Shown piece after piece: positions 995 through 10,516 of a DNA stretch of 32,792 nucleotides (position 1 is its first letter; every line of letters starts with the position of its first letter). Under the pieces are notes generated by a model. That model saw nothing but the letters and a program-made list of their open reading frames with translations, did not search any database and was not told the DNA's origin. Made by a program: the position numbers and the translations under genes. Source of the stretch: an uncultured Bacteroidales bacterium (GTDB lineage: Bacteria > Bacteroidota > Bacteroidia > Bacteroidales > UBA932); assembly GCA_946616285.1 (NCBI GenBank), contig CAMOIT010000009.1:1-32792 (forward strand), given 5' to 3'.

Positions 995-2785
995 ATGACA
1001 ACGATGAAACATATTTGGAAATACATGATCGTTGCACTGGCAGGTCTCTCGCTCCTCGCGTGCAACAAAAAAGAAGAAATAGTCCCGGATGAGAAACCGG
1101 CCGGGAAATACACCTACACCATTGCAGTGGCCGGAGATACCAAGTCCCATCTTGCCGGCGATCACATGGCCTGGGATGAAACAGACATGATTGGTTGGTT
1201 TATCAATAACAATGCATTCGATTGTTCGGAGATTGATATAGAAGCCACGCCTCGTACTTTCGAGGTCAGCAGCTCAACGGCTCTCCCCGCCAATTCCATG
1301 GTGTACGCCTTCGCCCCCTGCTATCCTTTAGTGTATGAAACCACTCCGACCAAGACGGCCGCGCCGCTTTCAATACCCGTCAGTCAGAGCGGAACTATTT
1401 CGGATGCGATGCCTATGGTTTCCGTACCAATCGAAATTGCGGATCCGGTTGCAGCTTCCACCGACAAACCCATTGCCGAGGCCAAATTCATCAACCTGGG
1501 TGCTGTGATTGAGTATAACATTTATACCACAAACGCTTCCTACAATGCGGAAAAGGTGCAGAGCGTAAAGTTTACTTCCAATTCCAACATTGCCGGTGAC
1601 TTCTCCGTGAACTTGACCACGGTGGCAGAGAATGCCATTCCCGTTCCTTCTGGCCTCACCGAAGACACGGTCACCTCTACGCTGGCTTCCGCCACCACCG
1701 TCGGTGGCAGCAAGGCCACGGGTATCAAGGTCTATCAGGTCATTGCTCCCGGCACCTGGTCCGGTACTGTTACCGTGACCACGGACGCTGCCGTTTACGA
1801 ATATCCTGTTACCAGCAAGGAATTCAACCGTGCCACCATCAAGACCCTCAATGTGGACCTGGCCAGCGCCAACGCTACGAGGATTTCTTTGGTAGAGTAT
1901 ATGCTTACTGCACATCAGTGGGAGCTGAAGGAAGTTCAGGAAGTCGGCGTTATCTGCACGTCAGCTACAGGAAACAAACTGACATTAAACAGTAATCACA
2001 CAATGGCTTTTGACTGTTCTGCTAACAGTAATCAAACATATGATCATACCTGGTCTGGTGGTTTGATTGCGCCAAACAAATATGGTGAAGTTGCCAATAT
2101 GAGGTGGTCCACGACCTCAAGCGGCGATATGGATTATCTCACTGTTACCGATGGTTTCCTGTTGGTGTTTGCTCAGGCATCTATGACAGGCGAATATGAA
2201 ATTGAAGAATTGACAGATAGTAAACTGAGGGTTAAGATTACTACTTATGACGAGGCGTGGACGCTTAAGTTCGATGCTGTAAATGACTCCCCGACGCCTG
2301 GCGTAGAAACAACTTGGGACCATACAATTGCATCTGGAGATTTTGGCCTTACTGAAACAGTTGAAAATGCTGAGTCAATTACTGCGACAATAAGTGGTAA
2401 AACATGGACTGTTTCCACAGATTCTCATTATTACTGCATCAAGGAACAATGGCCGTGGGCAGGACTTGCCTTATGGTGTGCTAATGGTTGGAATAATAAT
2501 GCCCTCTTGCTTACTCTGGAGAGTTCTGACTTTGATGGCGTTATTTCAAGCGTAGGAATAGACCTGTCATTAGCGGGAAATGAGCACCAACTGGTAAGTT
2601 GTTCTGTGGGTGGAACATCTTACGGCTCGCAAGAAATCAATAACGATGATGAGAAGCATCCCCAACAGACAGTGACATTTACCGGTTCGTCCTCTGGGAC
2701 AATTGTAATTACAGTGGATAATAGCCTTACTTGTGGAATACCTATGATGTTCCGTGGGCTCCACGTAACATATACTCCTGACTGA
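995..2785 (+). CDS. fimbrillin-like lipoprotein with lipocalin-like module and C-terminal beta-sandwich-like module; ends at TGA in frame with downstream GH16
   Basis: Lipobox LSLLACNKK; fimbrillin-like N-terminus (AGDTKSHLAGDHMAWDETDMIGWF); modules shared with 5195 and 6944 ORFs. Confidence 0.88.
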   Translation: MTTMKHIWKYMIVALAGLSLLACNKKEEIVPDEKPAGKYTYTIAVAGDTKSHLAGDHMAWDETDMIGWFINNNAFDCSEIDIEATPRTFEVSSSTALPANSMVYAFAPCYPLVYETTPTKTAAPLSIPVSQSGTISDAMPMVSVPIEIADPVAASTDKPIAEAKFINLGAVIEYNIYTTNASYNAEKVQSVKFTSNSNIAGDFSVNLTTVAENAIPVPSGLTEDTVTSTLASATTVGGSKATGIKVYQVIAPGTWSGTVTVTTDAAVYEYPVTSKEFNRATIKTLNVDLASANATRISLVEYMLTAHQWELKEVQEVGVICTSATGNKLTLNSNHTMAFDCSANSNQTYDHTWSGGLIAPNKYGEVANMRWSTTSSGDMDYLTVTDGFLLVFAQASMTGEYEIEELTDSKLRVKITTYDEAWTLKFDAVNDSPTPGVETTWDHTIASGDFGLTETVENAESITATISGKTWTVSTDSHYYCIKEQWPWAGLALWCANGWNNNALLLTLESSDFDGVISSVGIDLSLAGNEHQLVSCSVGGTSYGSQEINNDDEKHPQQTVTFTGSSSGTIVITVDNSLTCGIPMMFRGLHVTYTPD

Positions 2786-2831
2786 CTGCCGGATTCCGAG
2801 CCCTCCCATTCGGGAGGGTTCCCCCCGGCAG
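2786..2831 (+). promoter_or_regulatory. nested hairpin immediately after the in-frame TGA
   Basis: Outer stem CTGCCGG(2786-2792)/CCGGCAG(2825-2831); inner stem GAGCCCTCCC(2798-2807)/GGGAGGGTTC(2812-2821, one G.U) with 4-nt loop ATTC. Confidence 0.7.
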
Positions 2832-3640
2832 GGTATACCCTGGCATGGAGCGACGAGTTTGATGACGGAGAGGACCTCGCCGACAACTGGACTTTCGAGT
2901 CCGGCGGAACAGGCTGGGGCAACAATGAGCTGCAGTATTACTGCGCAGGCGGGTCATACAACTACAAAGGGACAACATACAACACTGCATCGGTGAGTGA
3001 AGATGGTACACTAAGGATAACGGCATACAAAATATCCGGCGACCAAAAGCCTGACAACCGTTCCTATCTCTCGGCCCGAATGAACACCAAAGAGAGCTGG
3101 CAATACGGCTATTTCGAGATGCGCGCAAAGCTGCCTGTAAAGGCAGGCTGCTGGTCGGCGTTCTGGATGCTACCAAAAGATGGTTCTGCCTATGTGCGGG
3201 ACGCAAGTATGGACGGCGGTGAGCTTGACATACTTGAGCATGTGCCAGGAGAAGATGAAAACGCAATTCACTTCTCGGCCCACAGTTATTATACGACCGG
3301 AGAAGCCGTAGGTGAAGGCGATTATGTCGACTATATCCACCCTGCGAGCGGAGCTCATTATAGCTACACTTCCTATGGCACCGTAGCAGATCCCACTGCG
3401 TGGCACATCTATTCGATGCTTTGGACTGAAACTGAAATCAGGGCATTCATCGACGGCGAGCAGTACTACTACGCTCCCAATCCTTACCCCGGCACGGTCG
3501 ATCTGCCTCACTGGGGTTTCGAGCAGGAGTTCTACATCAAGCTCAATCTCGCAGTCGGCGGAGACTGGGGCGGAACTCCCGCCAATGATTTCAGCGCTGA
3601 AACCTTCGAGATCGACTACGTAAGAGTATACCAGCAATAA
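2786..3640 (+). other. GH16 catalytic domain in the same frame as 995..2785, separated only by TGA 2783-2785 (nonsense-interrupted, or read through)
   Basis: Translation after TGA: LPDSEPSHSGGFPPAGYTLAWSDEFDDGEDLADNWTFESGGTGWGNNELQYYC...; ExDxxE intact (E-L-D-I-L-E); only in-frame canonical-type start is GTG 2993, inside the fold. Confidence 0.85.
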
Positions 3641-3661: not shown

Positions 3662-3722
3662 GGCTAAACCGCGACACTTATCGGCCCTTCACGCCCCCGA
3701 GTGTCGCGGTTCAGCCGTTTTT
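3662..3722 (+). terminator. large hairpin followed by T-run downstream of the GH16 domain
   Basis: GGCTaAACCGCGACACT(3662-3678)/AGTGTCGCGGTTcAGCC(3700-3716), then GTTTTT. Confidence 0.65.
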
Positions 3723-5194: not shown

Positions 5195-6916
5195 ATGATG
5201 AAACACATTCAGTACTTTGCATTCGTGGCTGTCGCCACAATCGCGCTGGCCGCATGTCGCCAGGAAGAGAAACCTTCCGTAACCCCTACTCCGGAAGGCC
5301 CTTACACTTACGTTCTTGCCATCGACGGCGCCACCAAGGCTGTGTTCGAAGAAGACCACATGGCCTGGGAAGAAGGCGACCTTATCGGCTGGTACACCGA
5401 CAAGGCGGGAAGCTCAGAGGTGGATATGAACACCGATCCCCGCAGCTTTGTCGTCAGCAGCACCGACCCTCTGGCTGCAGGCTCCACCATCTACGCCTAC
5501 GCGCCTTACCAGGACGGTGAGCTGGACATTACCGCCGCTCCGTTCTCCATCCCTGTCACACAGGACGGCAGCACCATCTCGAGCTGCATGCCACTGGCAG
5601 CTATTCCTGTCGTGATTGGTGAGAACCTGGCAGCCGGCGATACACCAATTGCCTCGGCCCAGTTCATTAACCTCGGCGCCCTGGTCCGGTATAACGTATA
5701 CTCATCCGACACAGAGTTCGCCGCCGAAACAGTGGAAAGCGTGGCATTCACCGCAAATTCGCCCATCGCCGGTGACTTCACCATGGATCTCACCGCTTTG
5801 GATATCAACGCCGTGGAGCAGGGAACCCTTCCTGACCCTTATGCCGCTCTTACCGAATCCACCGTAATATCAGTCCTTTCCACTCCAGCAGCAGTCGGTG
5901 GGGCCAAGGAAAACGGCGTAAAACTGTACCAGGTCATCGCCCCCGGCAGCTTCAGCGGCACCATCACGGTTACCACCGACAAGGCCGTGTACACCTACAC
6001 CCTTGCCAGCGCACTTGACTTCGAACGCGGCCATCTGCAGCCTATCAACCTTGACCTCGGCAGCAGCAAGGCTACGCGTATTTCTATGGTAGAGTACCTG
6101 CTGACCTCCCGCAGCTGGAAGCTGACTGGAGTGAAAGAGGTTGGTAACAGTGTGACTACTTCCGTAGGCAATATCCTGACGCTGAACAGCGACGGCACTA
6201 TGGCATTCGACTGCACGGCCAATAACGGACAAACCTACGACCACACCTGGGTGGGCGGGCTTATCGGTCCGGACGACTACGGAAATGTCAGTGATATGGG
6301 CTGGTCGCTCTCTAACGAAAGCGGAACAGACTTTATTACTGTAACCGACGGTTACCTTCTGGTATTTGCCCAGTCAGACATGACTGGCGTCTATGAGATC
6401 AAAGAACTGTCCGAGACCAAGCTGACTGTGGATATCGAAACTTGGGGTGAAGTCTGGACCCTTCAGTTCGATGCAGTAGAAGATACTCCTACGCCCCCCA
6501 CTCCTCCCACTCCCGCGACAACGGAAGAACTTCTGATTGCCCACAGCTGGGTGCTGACAGGAGTGAAAGAAGCCGGTAACAGTGTTACTACTTCCGTGGG
6601 TAACATCCTGACTCTGAGCAGCGGCGGCAGCATGTCATTTGACTGCACGGCCAACAATGGACAAACCTTCGACCACACCTGGGTAGGCGGTCTGATTAAT
6701 CCCGACGACTATGATCCGGTGAGCAGTTTCAGCTGGTCAGTTTCATCCGAAGGAGAGAAGACCTTCCTGAACGTCGAATATGGATACCTGCTGGTATTTG
6801 TCCAGGCAGACATGAATGGCGTCTATGAAATCAAGGAACTGTCCGAGACCAAGCTGACGGTGGATGTCGAAACTTGGGGCGAAGTCTGGACTCTTCTTTT
6901 CGATGCGGCAGAATAA
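5195..6916 (+). CDS. fimbrillin-like lipoprotein with two tandem lipocalin-like modules
   Basis: Lipobox ALAACRQ; two near-copies of 'WxLTGVKEVGNSVTTSVGNILTL...FDCTANNGQT.DHTWVGGLI...GYLLVF.Q.DM.GVYEIKELSETKLTVD.ETWGEVWTL.FDA' joined by a PTPPTPPTP linker. Confidence 0.88.
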   Translation: MMKHIQYFAFVAVATIALAACRQEEKPSVTPTPEGPYTYVLAIDGATKAVFEEDHMAWEEGDLIGWYTDKAGSSEVDMNTDPRSFVVSSTDPLAAGSTIYAYAPYQDGELDITAAPFSIPVTQDGSTISSCMPLAAIPVVIGENLAAGDTPIASAQFINLGALVRYNVYSSDTEFAAETVESVAFTANSPIAGDFTMDLTALDINAVEQGTLPDPYAALTESTVISVLSTPAAVGGAKENGVKLYQVIAPGSFSGTITVTTDKAVYTYTLASALDFERGHLQPINLDLGSSKATRISMVEYLLTSRSWKLTGVKEVGNSVTTSVGNILTLNSDGTMAFDCTANNGQTYDHTWVGGLIGPDDYGNVSDMGWSLSNESGTDFITVTDGYLLVFAQSDMTGVYEIKELSETKLTVDIETWGEVWTLQFDAVEDTPTPPTPPTPATTEELLIAHSWVLTGVKEAGNSVTTSVGNILTLSSGGSMSFDCTANNGQTFDHTWVGGLINPDDYDPVSSFSWSVSSEGEKTFLNVEYGYLLVFVQADMNGVYEIKELSETKLTVDVETWGEVWTLLFDAAE

Positions 6917-6943: not shown

Positions 6944-8320
6944 ATGAAAACTAAAAGCATTCTTCTGGCAGCCGTGGCAGTAATGAGCCTGGCAGCATGC
7001 CACAGGGAGCCGGTCGGCCCCGTAGAAAAGGAGTTCACCGCGGGCTTCCAAACCAAGACCTCAGTCGCTTATGACGAGGCCAGCAACAAGTACGCCATCT
7101 CCTGGGAAGCAGGGGACCAGGTGAGCATCTTCGACGGCGAAGCAAACAACGTATTCACCGCCAAGGAAGCCGGCCTGTCCACCACCCTTACCGGTCAGGC
7201 CAAGGACGCCAACACCTACTATGCGCTCTATCCTTACGCAGCAAATGCGGCGCTCAACGGCGCCGTCATTTCCACTGCAATTCCTGCATCGGCAGCATTG
7301 ACGGCCGACGGATCGGCACACTTCGCCAACATTTCCGTCGCCAAGACCAGCGGCACCACCCTCAGCTTCGCAACCGTCGTGGGTATGATCAAATTCACCC
7401 TTGGCGCCGAAGCAACCGGCATCAAAGAGATCCACATCAAGGCCGTTGGCGGTGAAACCCTCGCCGGCAGCGCCTCCATCGACATGAGCGGCAACCCCGT
7501 CCTCAGCATCGCTGACGGCGTAAGTAGCATCACCGTAACCCCTGCCTCCGGCAACGTTTTCGAAACCGGACACAGCTACTATGTGGCAGCTGCCCCTGCG
7601 ACTCTCGCAAGCGGTATCGCCCTTGAATTCGTAACCGCAAACGGCAAGGTGACCAAGACCCAGGAAAAGGCCCTTACCATCAGCGCTGGCAAAGTTATGA
7701 ACATTGGTGTCATCAACAGCATCGACGACGTTCCCGAACCCATAATGGAATGCCCCTACCGGCACGAATTCGCCAACGGTGACTTCGGCATCGGCCCCAT
7801 CTTCGACTGGGGTGGCTGGGAAGACGGCTACTACTTTGACATGCTCACCAACCCGGATGTCCTTTCCGGCGCTACTTGGAACATAACCGATACCGGTTAC
7901 TACGAGTGGGCAGGTACTGAAGGTTGGAGAAAGGGTATCCAGCTTGGTACCGGCAATATGACCGTCTCTAATTTCGCCCTGTCTTCGACTTCCTTCCCTG
8001 GCGTAATCACCAGCATTACCCTTGGCTACAACTCCGGTATTACCGACGGCCAGAGCCTGGTAGCAAGCTGCACGGTGGGCAATGCCGTCTTCGGCGCTCC
8101 CGTGGCACACGGTGACGGTGACTATGAGGCCGTCTTCAATGGCAGCGCATCCGGCGACATCGTGATTACCCTTAACTCTACCACCAAGGGCGCCGTCTAC
8201 CTGTATTATCTGTACGTAGAATACGATCCGGACGGCACTCCCGTGGAGCCCGGCGACGATCGCGAGGAAACCGCAGGATTCCAGGATCTGACTGGTGAAA
8301 ACTATGACGTTCAGTGGTAA
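6944..8320 (+). CDS. fimbrillin-like lipoprotein with C-terminal beta-sandwich-like module
   Basis: Lipobox SLAACHR; C-terminal module ('GVITSITLGYN...LVASCTVGNAVFG...SGDIVITLNS...LYVEYDPD') parallels that of 995..2785. Confidence 0.85.
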   Translation: MKTKSILLAAVAVMSLAACHREPVGPVEKEFTAGFQTKTSVAYDEASNKYAISWEAGDQVSIFDGEANNVFTAKEAGLSTTLTGQAKDANTYYALYPYAANAALNGAVISTAIPASAALTADGSAHFANISVAKTSGTTLSFATVVGMIKFTLGAEATGIKEIHIKAVGGETLAGSASIDMSGNPVLSIADGVSSITVTPASGNVFETGHSYYVAAAPATLASGIALEFVTANGKVTKTQEKALTISAGKVMNIGVINSIDDVPEPIMECPYRHEFANGDFGIGPIFDWGGWEDGYYFDMLTNPDVLSGATWNITDTGYYEWAGTEGWRKGIQLGTGNMTVSNFALSSTSFPGVITSITLGYNSGITDGQSLVASCTVGNAVFGAPVAHGDGDYEAVFNGSASGDIVITLNSTTKGAVYLYYLYVEYDPDGTPVEPGDDREETAGFQDLTGENYDVQW

Positions 8321-9941
8321 AAGAATCCTTGCCGCGCTAACGCTTATTACGGTTTTTGCGGCATGCAGTAAAGAGCAGAGCGTTTCCGTCGTCTCCGCAG
8401 ACGACGGAAACGGCTCACTCGTCTTTACAGCTGGATTCGATACCAAAACGTCCGTTTCCCCTGGCGGAAGCACTTATTCCATAAGCTGGATAAGCGGCGA
8501 CCTGGTGAGCCTTTTCGACGGCGTGTCCAACAACGCCTTCACGGCCCAGAGCACCGGAAGTTCTACAACCCTGAAGGGCAAGGCTGCCAATGCAGGCACC
8601 TACTATGCCCTTTACCCTTATTCGGCAGGGGCGTCGCTTTCCGGGACCGTCATCTCCACGTCTATCCCGTCTTCGGTCAAGGCTTCGGCCGACGGAAGCA
8701 CCGGCTTCGCCAACCTTTCCGTTGCCAAGACCAGCGGCACGAACCTGATCTTCACAACAGTGGCCGGCGTGCTGCGCTTCATCCTGGGCGGCACATTGAT
8801 GAACGTCAGTGAAATCCGCATTTCGGCCCTTGGCGGCGAAGCTATTGCCGGCAGCGTTACCATCGGCATGAGCGGTACTCCCGCACTGACCGTTGCCGCC
8901 GGTGTCAGCACCATCAGCGTTATACCGGCCTCCGGCAGCGTTTTTGCCACCGGGCACAGCTACTACGTGGCGGCAGCGCCTGGAACCCTTGCGAGCGGCA
9001 TAAAGCTGGAGTTCGTCACCCCTTCCGGAACGGTAACGAAGACGCAGAGCAAGGCGCTGACCATCAAGCCCGGCGTGGTGCTTAACCTTGGCACCATCGG
9101 AGACTCGTCCCCTTCTGACGGCTTTGCGCCGGCAGGCTATTCGCTGGTATGGAGCGATGAATTTACGGACGGGGAGGACCTCTCCGACAAGTGGACTTTT
9201 GAAAGCGGCGGCACCGGCTGGGGCAACGACGAACTGCAGTATTACTGCGCCAACGGCGTGTACTCCCGTACCGGGCAGCAGACGGCCTTCGTGAGCGACG
9301 GAACGCTGAAAATCAAGGCCTACAAGGTCACTCCCCGGAGCGACACGGACAACTGCTCCTACATCTCGGCCCGTATGTCCACCAAGGACAGGTGGAAGTA
9401 CGGCTACATAGAGATGAAGGCAAAGCTTCCGGTCGAAGCCGGCACCTGGTCGGCCTTCTGGATGCTTCCCAACCCGAACAAGTATCCTTCCTGGGTGCGG
9501 GACGAATCCTGCAAAGGCGGCGAACTGGACATCATGGAATATGTGCCGAACGACAACCCCGACGTGTACTACTTCTCGGCGCACAGCTACAACGCCACGC
9601 CCGAAGCAGGCAGAAGCAGCGGCTATGATGATCCCACTACCGGCAAGCACTATCCGTACTACGGCCAGACGGACATCAGCAATCCTGGCGGCAAGTGGCA
9701 CTATTTCGGGATGGAATGGACCCACACCTATGTGAAAGCCTTCATGGACGGTCAGCAGTTCTACTATGCTCCCAATCCATTCCCGAATTACCAACCGGCC
9801 GACAGCAACCCCGACTGGGGCTTCGACAAGGATTTCTACATCAAGTTGAACCTTGCCATCGGCGGCAGCTGGGGCGGAGCAGTGGATAAGAATTTCAGCG
9901 AATCTACCTACGAAATCGATTGGATCCGCGTCTACCAATAG
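8304..9941 (+). CDS. fimbrillin-like lipoprotein fused to GH16 catalytic domain
   Basis: Lipobox VFAACSK; GH16 ExDxxE as E-L-D-I-M-E; ATG at 8304 preferred to track GTG 8295; overlaps the previous gene's 3' end. Confidence 0.93.
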   Translation: MTFSGKRILAALTLITVFAACSKEQSVSVVSADDGNGSLVFTAGFDTKTSVSPGGSTYSISWISGDLVSLFDGVSNNAFTAQSTGSSTTLKGKAANAGTYYALYPYSAGASLSGTVISTSIPSSVKASADGSTGFANLSVAKTSGTNLIFTTVAGVLRFILGGTLMNVSEIRISALGGEAIAGSVTIGMSGTPALTVAAGVSTISVIPASGSVFATGHSYYVAAAPGTLASGIKLEFVTPSGTVTKTQSKALTIKPGVVLNLGTIGDSSPSDGFAPAGYSLVWSDEFTDGEDLSDKWTFESGGTGWGNDELQYYCANGVYSRTGQQTAFVSDGTLKIKAYKVTPRSDTDNCSYISARMSTKDRWKYGYIEMKAKLPVEAGTWSAFWMLPNPNKYPSWVRDESCKGGELDIMEYVPNDNPDVYYFSAHSYNATPEAGRSSGYDDPTTGKHYPYYGQTDISNPGGKWHYFGMEWTHTYVKAFMDGQQFYYAPNPFPNYQPADSNPDWGFDKDFYIKLNLAIGGSWGGAVDKNFSESTYEIDWIRVYQ

Positions 9942-10341: not shown

Positions 10342-10373
10342 GTCCGCATGAAAACGTCCCAGGTCTGGGAGTA

Positions 10374-10516
10374 GAACGTCGCAGGTCCGAAAAAAAACGC
10401 TGAACTGCGACGTTCTGTGCCGTGAGATAACGATTTGCGTCGCAGTTCGGCCTAAAAAAACGGAACTGCGACAGCAAGTGTGTGACCTGCGACGAAATAG
10501 CACAGACCTGCGACGG
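10374..10516. repeat. cluster of inverted and direct GTCGCAG / CTGCGAC repeats (REP-like hairpins with A-run loops)
   Basis: GAACGTCGCAG(10374-10384)/CTGCGACGTTC(10405-10415); GTCGCAGTTC(10439-10448)/GAACTGCGAC(10463-10472); then GACCTGCGACG twice (from 10484 and 10505). Confidence 0.75.

Follow-up and report, generated by a model that had tools for sequence, protein, structure and literature searches.

A candidate UGA readthrough switch joining a surface lipoprotein to a GH16 domain in an uncultured Bacteroidales bacterium

The DNA analyzed here, referred to as the window, is a stretch of 32,792 nucleotides (nt) from an uncultured Bacteroidales bacterium and represents the entire contig C9 (CAMOIT010000009.1) of assembly GCA_946616285.1, which has a size of 1.62 Mb and is 70.6% complete. 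On its forward strand, a gene for a lipoprotein is separated from an in-frame GH16 domain by a single TGA codon, which is directly followed by a strong hairpin. The arrangement is best explained by programmed UGA readthrough (probability about 0.77), which is predicted to yield a binding lipoprotein together with a less frequent isoform to which the enzyme is attached. Altogether, 41 loci with a multidomain surface-type protein, an in-frame TGA and a start-less in-frame reading frame were collected from 38 genomes of the same genus. A genus-wide chromosomal UGA readthrough system appears slightly more probable than the reading of the single gene. It would consist of the context NAN-UGA-[A/C/G], a spacer of approximately 7 nt or none, a covarying stem-loop, and a start-less cargo. 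By this system, a small fraction of the surface proteins would gain a nuclease or glucanase, and the module would have become linked to a large number of unrelated N-terminal proteins. For the family of loci as such, programmed readthrough is predicted with the highest confidence of the three.

Reading frame, stop codon and hairpin of the focal gene

The region 995..3640 was found to be a single open frame with TGA 2783-2785 as its sole interruption, and re-reading of the sequence agreed with the first-pass annotation in this respect. The following features were assigned:

995..2782, + strand: lipoprotein reading frame, predicted short isoform of 596 amino acids, with signal peptide, fimbrillin/lipocalin-like regions and C-terminal domain X
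2321..2782, + strand: domain X, an all-beta sandwich resembling carbohydrate-binding modules (AlphaFold2, Foldseek and profile)
2780..2785, + strand: codon GAC (NAN type) and putatively recoded UGA, with C as +4 base (read from the sequence)
2786..2831, + strand: nested stem-loop with outer stem 2786-2792/2825-2831, inner stem 2798-2807/2812-2821 and loop 2808-2811
2786..3640, + strand: start-less in-frame extension of 284 amino acids (284 sense codons), comprising a linker and GH16, predicted for the readthrough isoform only
3221..3238, + strand: GH16 catalytic motif ELDILE (ExDxxE), from the sequence and comparison of family columns
8304..9941, + strand: paralogue, a continuous N-domain-GH16 fusion without a stop, used for comparison only and outside the switch

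The lipobox LSLLAC was read from the signal peptide of the protein encoded by 995..2782. A Pfam search with this reading frame assigned no family, and the protein shared 52% identity with the paralogue at 5195-6508. GH16 was identified in the frame behind the TGA at 2981-3583 (Pfam PF00722, E-value 1.2e-16, 61 bits at a cut-off of 22), and the domain retained 44 of 45 near-invariant columns in a comparison with 40 related GH16 domains. The earliest candidate starts after the TGA were GTG 2993 and ATG 3080; therefore, the extension has neither a start nor a signal of its own. It had been described before as open, with ExDxxE preserved and no start ahead of GTG 2993, and this description was borne out.

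The outer stem of the hairpin pairs CTGCCGG with CCGGCAG, and the inner stem pairs GAGCCCTCCC with GGGAGGGTTC, including one G.U pair and closed by the tetraloop ATTC; internal loops are located at 2793-2797 and 2822-2824. A folding energy of -29.7 kcal/mol was calculated for the 45 nt from 2786 to 2830, and none of 14,163 windows of 45 nt from approximately 213 kb of the same genome was as strong. Thus, the strong nested hairpin claimed in the first-pass annotation directly after the TGA was recovered. The energy was reached by none of 3000 synonymous recodings (z -5.8 in a separate synonymous test), by which Gly/Pro-rich coding was ruled out as the source of the hairpin. An intrinsic terminator was ruled out as well, since no T-run is present 3' of it. 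The 3' arm of the hairpin is coding, since it specifies the linker GG[FY]-x-PAGY that characterizes this subfamily of GH16; for this arm, which is ancestral GH16 linker, a repetitive extragenic palindromic (REP)-like repeat was rejected. Conservation of the hairpin across ordinary GH16 linkers was not seen, the other 43 linkers folding at -6.9 to -23.4. Seven dispersed intergenic REP-like palindromes of the form AAG-CCCTCCCC..GGGGAGGG-TTTGGGAGGGGGTAACG (L086-L092) were observed on contigs C15, C17, C32, C38, C48 and C91 of this genome; they are sometimes located 5 nt past a stop codon, and a control with the reversed pattern gave 0.

Domain X and the family of loci

In the AlphaFold2 model of domain X (predicted local distance difference test score 85.5), the last strand comprises residues 142-153 of 154 and finishes one residue ahead of the stop. 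The best Foldseek matches in the PDB were CBM4, CBM36, CBM35 and CBM61, with E-values of 2e-4 to 1e-3 and modest template modeling scores of 0.4-0.53. Profile A1 of domain X was searched across 400 genomes of the genus and placed the domain beside stops in other genomes. Two kinds of ending were obtained: the majority of the proteins terminate with TAA or TAG and no continuation, and most of those terminating with TGA continue in frame for 276-535 codons without a start. The comparison was based on 47 proteins that contain domain X and in which the stop could be read, gathered regardless of the downstream sequence. Start-less in-frame continuations followed 13 of 17 TGA codons (one of them on contig C18 of the focal genome) and 0 of 30 TAA/TAG codons (Fisher 1.7e-8); two long frames after TAA/TAG open with their own Met and lipobox. 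Domain X fused to a nuclease with no stop was observed at L124 (G062:C179); therefore, the genus contains all three forms, namely separate, joined by UGA, and continuous.

The family was assembled using the domain X profile, an Endonuclease_NS survey, and a sequence model of the 42-nt junction (R1). The cargo was of nuclease type in 40 of the 41 loci, often behind Fn3-like repeats; the nuclease was identified by Pfam PF01223 (E-value 2.3e-37) for L093, and by similarity and motif for the other loci. The extension of L128 comprises merely 73 amino acids. A second candidate is present in the focal genome itself (L137, G000:C18:11000-15400, minus strand, TGA at position 2446 of the locus), where a long Ig-like/CHB_HEX_C protein is followed by TGA, a class II nested hairpin (see below), and 501 amino acids with a terminal nuclease. 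An additional member, L258 (G032:C12, approximately 100934), contains a second in-frame TGA within the hairpin, to be explained either by decay of this copy or by a double stop.

The stop was TGA in 41/41 loci (baseline 28-34%), and the codon at -1 was NAN in 41/41 (baseline 42-55%). As +4 base, A was found 23 times, C and G 9 times each, and U never, with a baseline of approximately 30% for U. UGA is the leakiest bacterial stop, readthrough is reduced by U at +4, and UGA-A and UGA-C favor misreading (PMC5289835); the focal context GAC-UGA-C fits this leaky type of stop.

Two classes of RNA element were distinguished. In class I, the UGA is followed by 7 unpaired nt and a stem of 6-7 base pairs. 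Over 31 distinct sequences, 97.8% of the cells were paired, and double changes occurred in 4 of 6 pairs. Covariation amounted to 0.289 compared with 0.068 in shuffled alignments (0/500) and at most 0.068 in slid versions. Some of the compensations alter the protein, as in L139, where Ser TCC is changed to Pro CCC and the partner GGA to GGG. Class II (L117, L137, L141, L193 and L135) is a nested two-stem hairpin that was paired to 100%, with four compensatory pairs in five sequences. The focal hairpin resembles class II in its nested two-stem layout and has a sequence of its own. Tested against a synonymous null, the hairpins of the first 21 loci gave a mean z of -2.0, compared with -0.63 for Gly/Ser/Pro-rich windows and -0.09 for random windows. 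Rfam provided no match to the element at 15 loci; only two tRNAs were matched.

Start-less nucleases were found only after TGA, and the stop preceding an adjacent nuclease gene with its own signal peptide was usually TAA or TAG. Beyond the genus, none of the best 30 nuclease homologues across the order was split in this manner, and those with a complete upstream view have their own start. Among the three closest loci, ratios of nonsynonymous to synonymous substitution rates (dN/dS) of 0.135, 0.177 and 0.263 were determined for the part behind the UGA (dS 0.77-1.05), the UGA being kept; their N-terminal parts shared 33-56% identity. Because the N-terminal parts differ to this extent, UGA, hairpin and nuclease look like a single heritable module that has been joined to different N-terminal proteins.

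Within the window, the GH16 domain of the paralogue at 8304..9941 was 59% identical to the one behind the UGA. The earlier description of this paralogue as an uninterrupted fimbrillin-GH16 fusion held for the uninterrupted fusion; its reading frame is listed from GTG 8295, and the fimbrillin label of its N-terminus was not supported by any Pfam match. In another paralogue, at 6944-8320, a sense codon and a tail of 29 amino acids come after domain X, and the gene overlaps at its end with the beginning of the continuous GH16 fusion (8295-9941). The nearest GH16 domains (L036-L041) showed 53-59% identity and belong mostly to stand-alone lipoproteins in SusC/SusD-type clusters, mostly with their own signal peptide. 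SusC/SusD-type and fimbrillin-like genes point to Bacteroidales as the source. The contig begins within the linker of another GH16 gene (1-849). The inverted repeats at 3662-3716 and 10373-10451, whose core is GCGACACT or CTGCGACG, are probably terminators or small repeats.

Weighing of the readings

According to the proposed mechanism, translation by most ribosomes would terminate at UGA 2783-2785, with release of a complete surface lipoprotein whose C-terminal domain is a carbohydrate-binding-like beta-sandwich. A minority of the ribosomes would insert an amino acid at the UGA, probably by a near-cognate tRNA such as tRNA-Trp. Insertion may be aided by the NAN codon in front of the UGA, by the lack of U at +4, and by a stem-loop that pauses or remodels the ribosome, all of which are features strongly constrained across the 41 loci. 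Ribosomes that read through would proceed in frame via the linker into the GH16 glucanase domain, resulting in a less abundant, surface-anchored isoform in which the binding protein carries the enzyme. The same switch would operate in about 40 further genes of the genus, in which the added part is a nuclease of Endonuclease_NS type, frequently preceded by Fn3-like repeats. The focal gene has the UGA stop with its preceding NAN codon, the absence of U at +4, domain X, the strong hairpin and the in-frame start-less enzyme in common with the family, in which domain X or a similar beta domain ends just before the UGA, as it does at the focal locus. It departs from the family in hairpin sequence, spacer and cargo.

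Several points weigh against programmed readthrough. All 41 loci are known from genome sequences. The focal gene is the only one of these with GH16 as cargo, and no orthologue of it (GH16 preceded by domain X plus a stop) was found in 149 relatives and 400 genomes of the genus; a scan of genome contigs gave one distant match. The focal hairpin lies outside the class I consensus (TGA-N6-TCCGG...CCGG) and was unmatched by model R1, and its stem begins immediately after the UGA compared with a spacer of approximately 7 nt elsewhere. Most loci were found by criteria that demanded a continuation. No R1 match of at least 20 bits lacked the UGA columns, the model itself having been built with the TGA columns included. 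The stem arms were assigned for each sequence before the pairs were counted, with 3' arms chosen individually and loops of varying length. Finally, since the modules at the 41 loci are related to one another, the counts are non-independent, and independence is overstated by the chance figures.

The recurrence of the arrangement at 40 other loci, always with TGA, in frame, with a covarying stem-loop and an extension under purifying selection, supported the first-pass proposal of programmed readthrough at a domain boundary. This recurrence is not accounted for by a private nonsense mutation or a sequencing error. That a continuous lipoprotein-GH16 fusion was recently interrupted in this genome by such a mutation or by an assembly error, with an incidental hairpin, is considered unlikely. 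The missing TGA-containing orthologue, the continuous paralogue at 8304-9941, the intact GH16 as expected just after a mutation, and the single assembly of low completeness are in its favor. However, the TGA is located exactly at the end of domain X, the hairpin is exceptional, the focal context (NAN, +4 C) matches the family, and domain X followed by TGA and in-frame cargo occurs in ten or so other genomes and on contig C18 of the focal genome. A natural end of the lipoprotein gene, with GH16 as a remnant that is either silent or expressed on its own and lies behind a hairpin of REP-like or terminator-like type, is distinctly less probable. Homologues of domain X often terminate at this position with TAA, and the seven intergenic hairpins of this genome mentioned above (CCCTCCC/GGGAGGG) have similar flanks. 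This explanation does not account for a GH16 that is in frame, start-less and intact, or for the coding 3' arm, and the lack of a T-run speaks against an intrinsic terminator.

Bypass sites are marked by hairpins and stops, and coupled reinitiation is common in bacteria. Stopping or hopping at the UGA with resumption downstream is nevertheless very improbable here: the first ATG is located 23-229 codons past the UGA, mostly within folds, and a reinitiation product would be without signal peptide. Starting with the first codon behind the UGA, all linkers are open, in frame and contain conserved codons, none of which is needed for bypassing. Reading of the UGA as selenocysteine, or its reassignment to sense, is hardly credible. 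The layout of a UGA with an immediate hairpin is that of a bacterial selenocysteine insertion sequence (SECIS; PMC8211752). However, the UGA position belongs to a linker and no redox site, and SelB was above the cut-off in none of 61 relatives and 18 case genomes (2 of 14 control genomes passed; the focal genome is 70.6% complete), wherefore the UGA is not taken as selenocysteine. Reassignment is opposed by the use of TGA as an ordinary stop by 40 of 142 long reading frames (28%) in the focal genome.

Comparison with known systems

Viruses and some eukaryotes are well known to use programmed readthrough of stop codons. In phage Q-beta, some molecules of a surface protein are extended in E. coli by a C-terminal domain through the leaky UGA of coat-A1. 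The present case is similar in that a leaky bacterial UGA would extend some copies of a surface protein. In contrast, Q-beta is an RNA phage, and the candidates described here form a chromosomal multi-gene family with a covarying stem-loop; to our knowledge, a chromosomal family of many such genes has not been described for Q-beta. In the open-licence papers of PubMed Central (subscription journals and preprints being outside this scope), no report was found of a bacterial chromosomal family with one UGA signal and a conserved hairpin in dozens of genes. If the proposed reading is true, such proteins are split by standard annotation, which labels the enzyme half as a start-less fragment, and the proportion of binding and catalytic surface proteins is adjusted by the genus at the level of translation. 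Bacterial readthrough signals would then be directly testable by means of the approximately 40 variants that exist in nature, in which the stems are compensatory and the NAN codon never varies.

Bacterial SECIS elements (PMC8211752) likewise place a hairpin immediately after a UGA inside a coding region. They require SelB, which was not found here, and the residue in question is non-catalytic in the present proteins. The Moloney murine leukemia virus (MuLV) gag-pol junction (PMC4178896) shares the order of stop, short unpaired spacer (8 nt in MuLV, 7 nt in class I) and stem structure, and its readthrough product also holds the enzymatic part in the same frame. MuLV, however, is a virus of eukaryotic cells that uses UAG and a pseudoknot, whereas the loci described here have UGA on a bacterial chromosome, simple or nested stem-loops, and surface proteins. 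The GH16 glucanases and Endonuclease_NS nucleases of Bacteroidales belong to the same catalytic families and are, as a rule, lipoproteins that possess a signal peptide of their own (L037-L041); here, in contrast, the enzyme would be reached only via UGA readthrough behind a binding protein.
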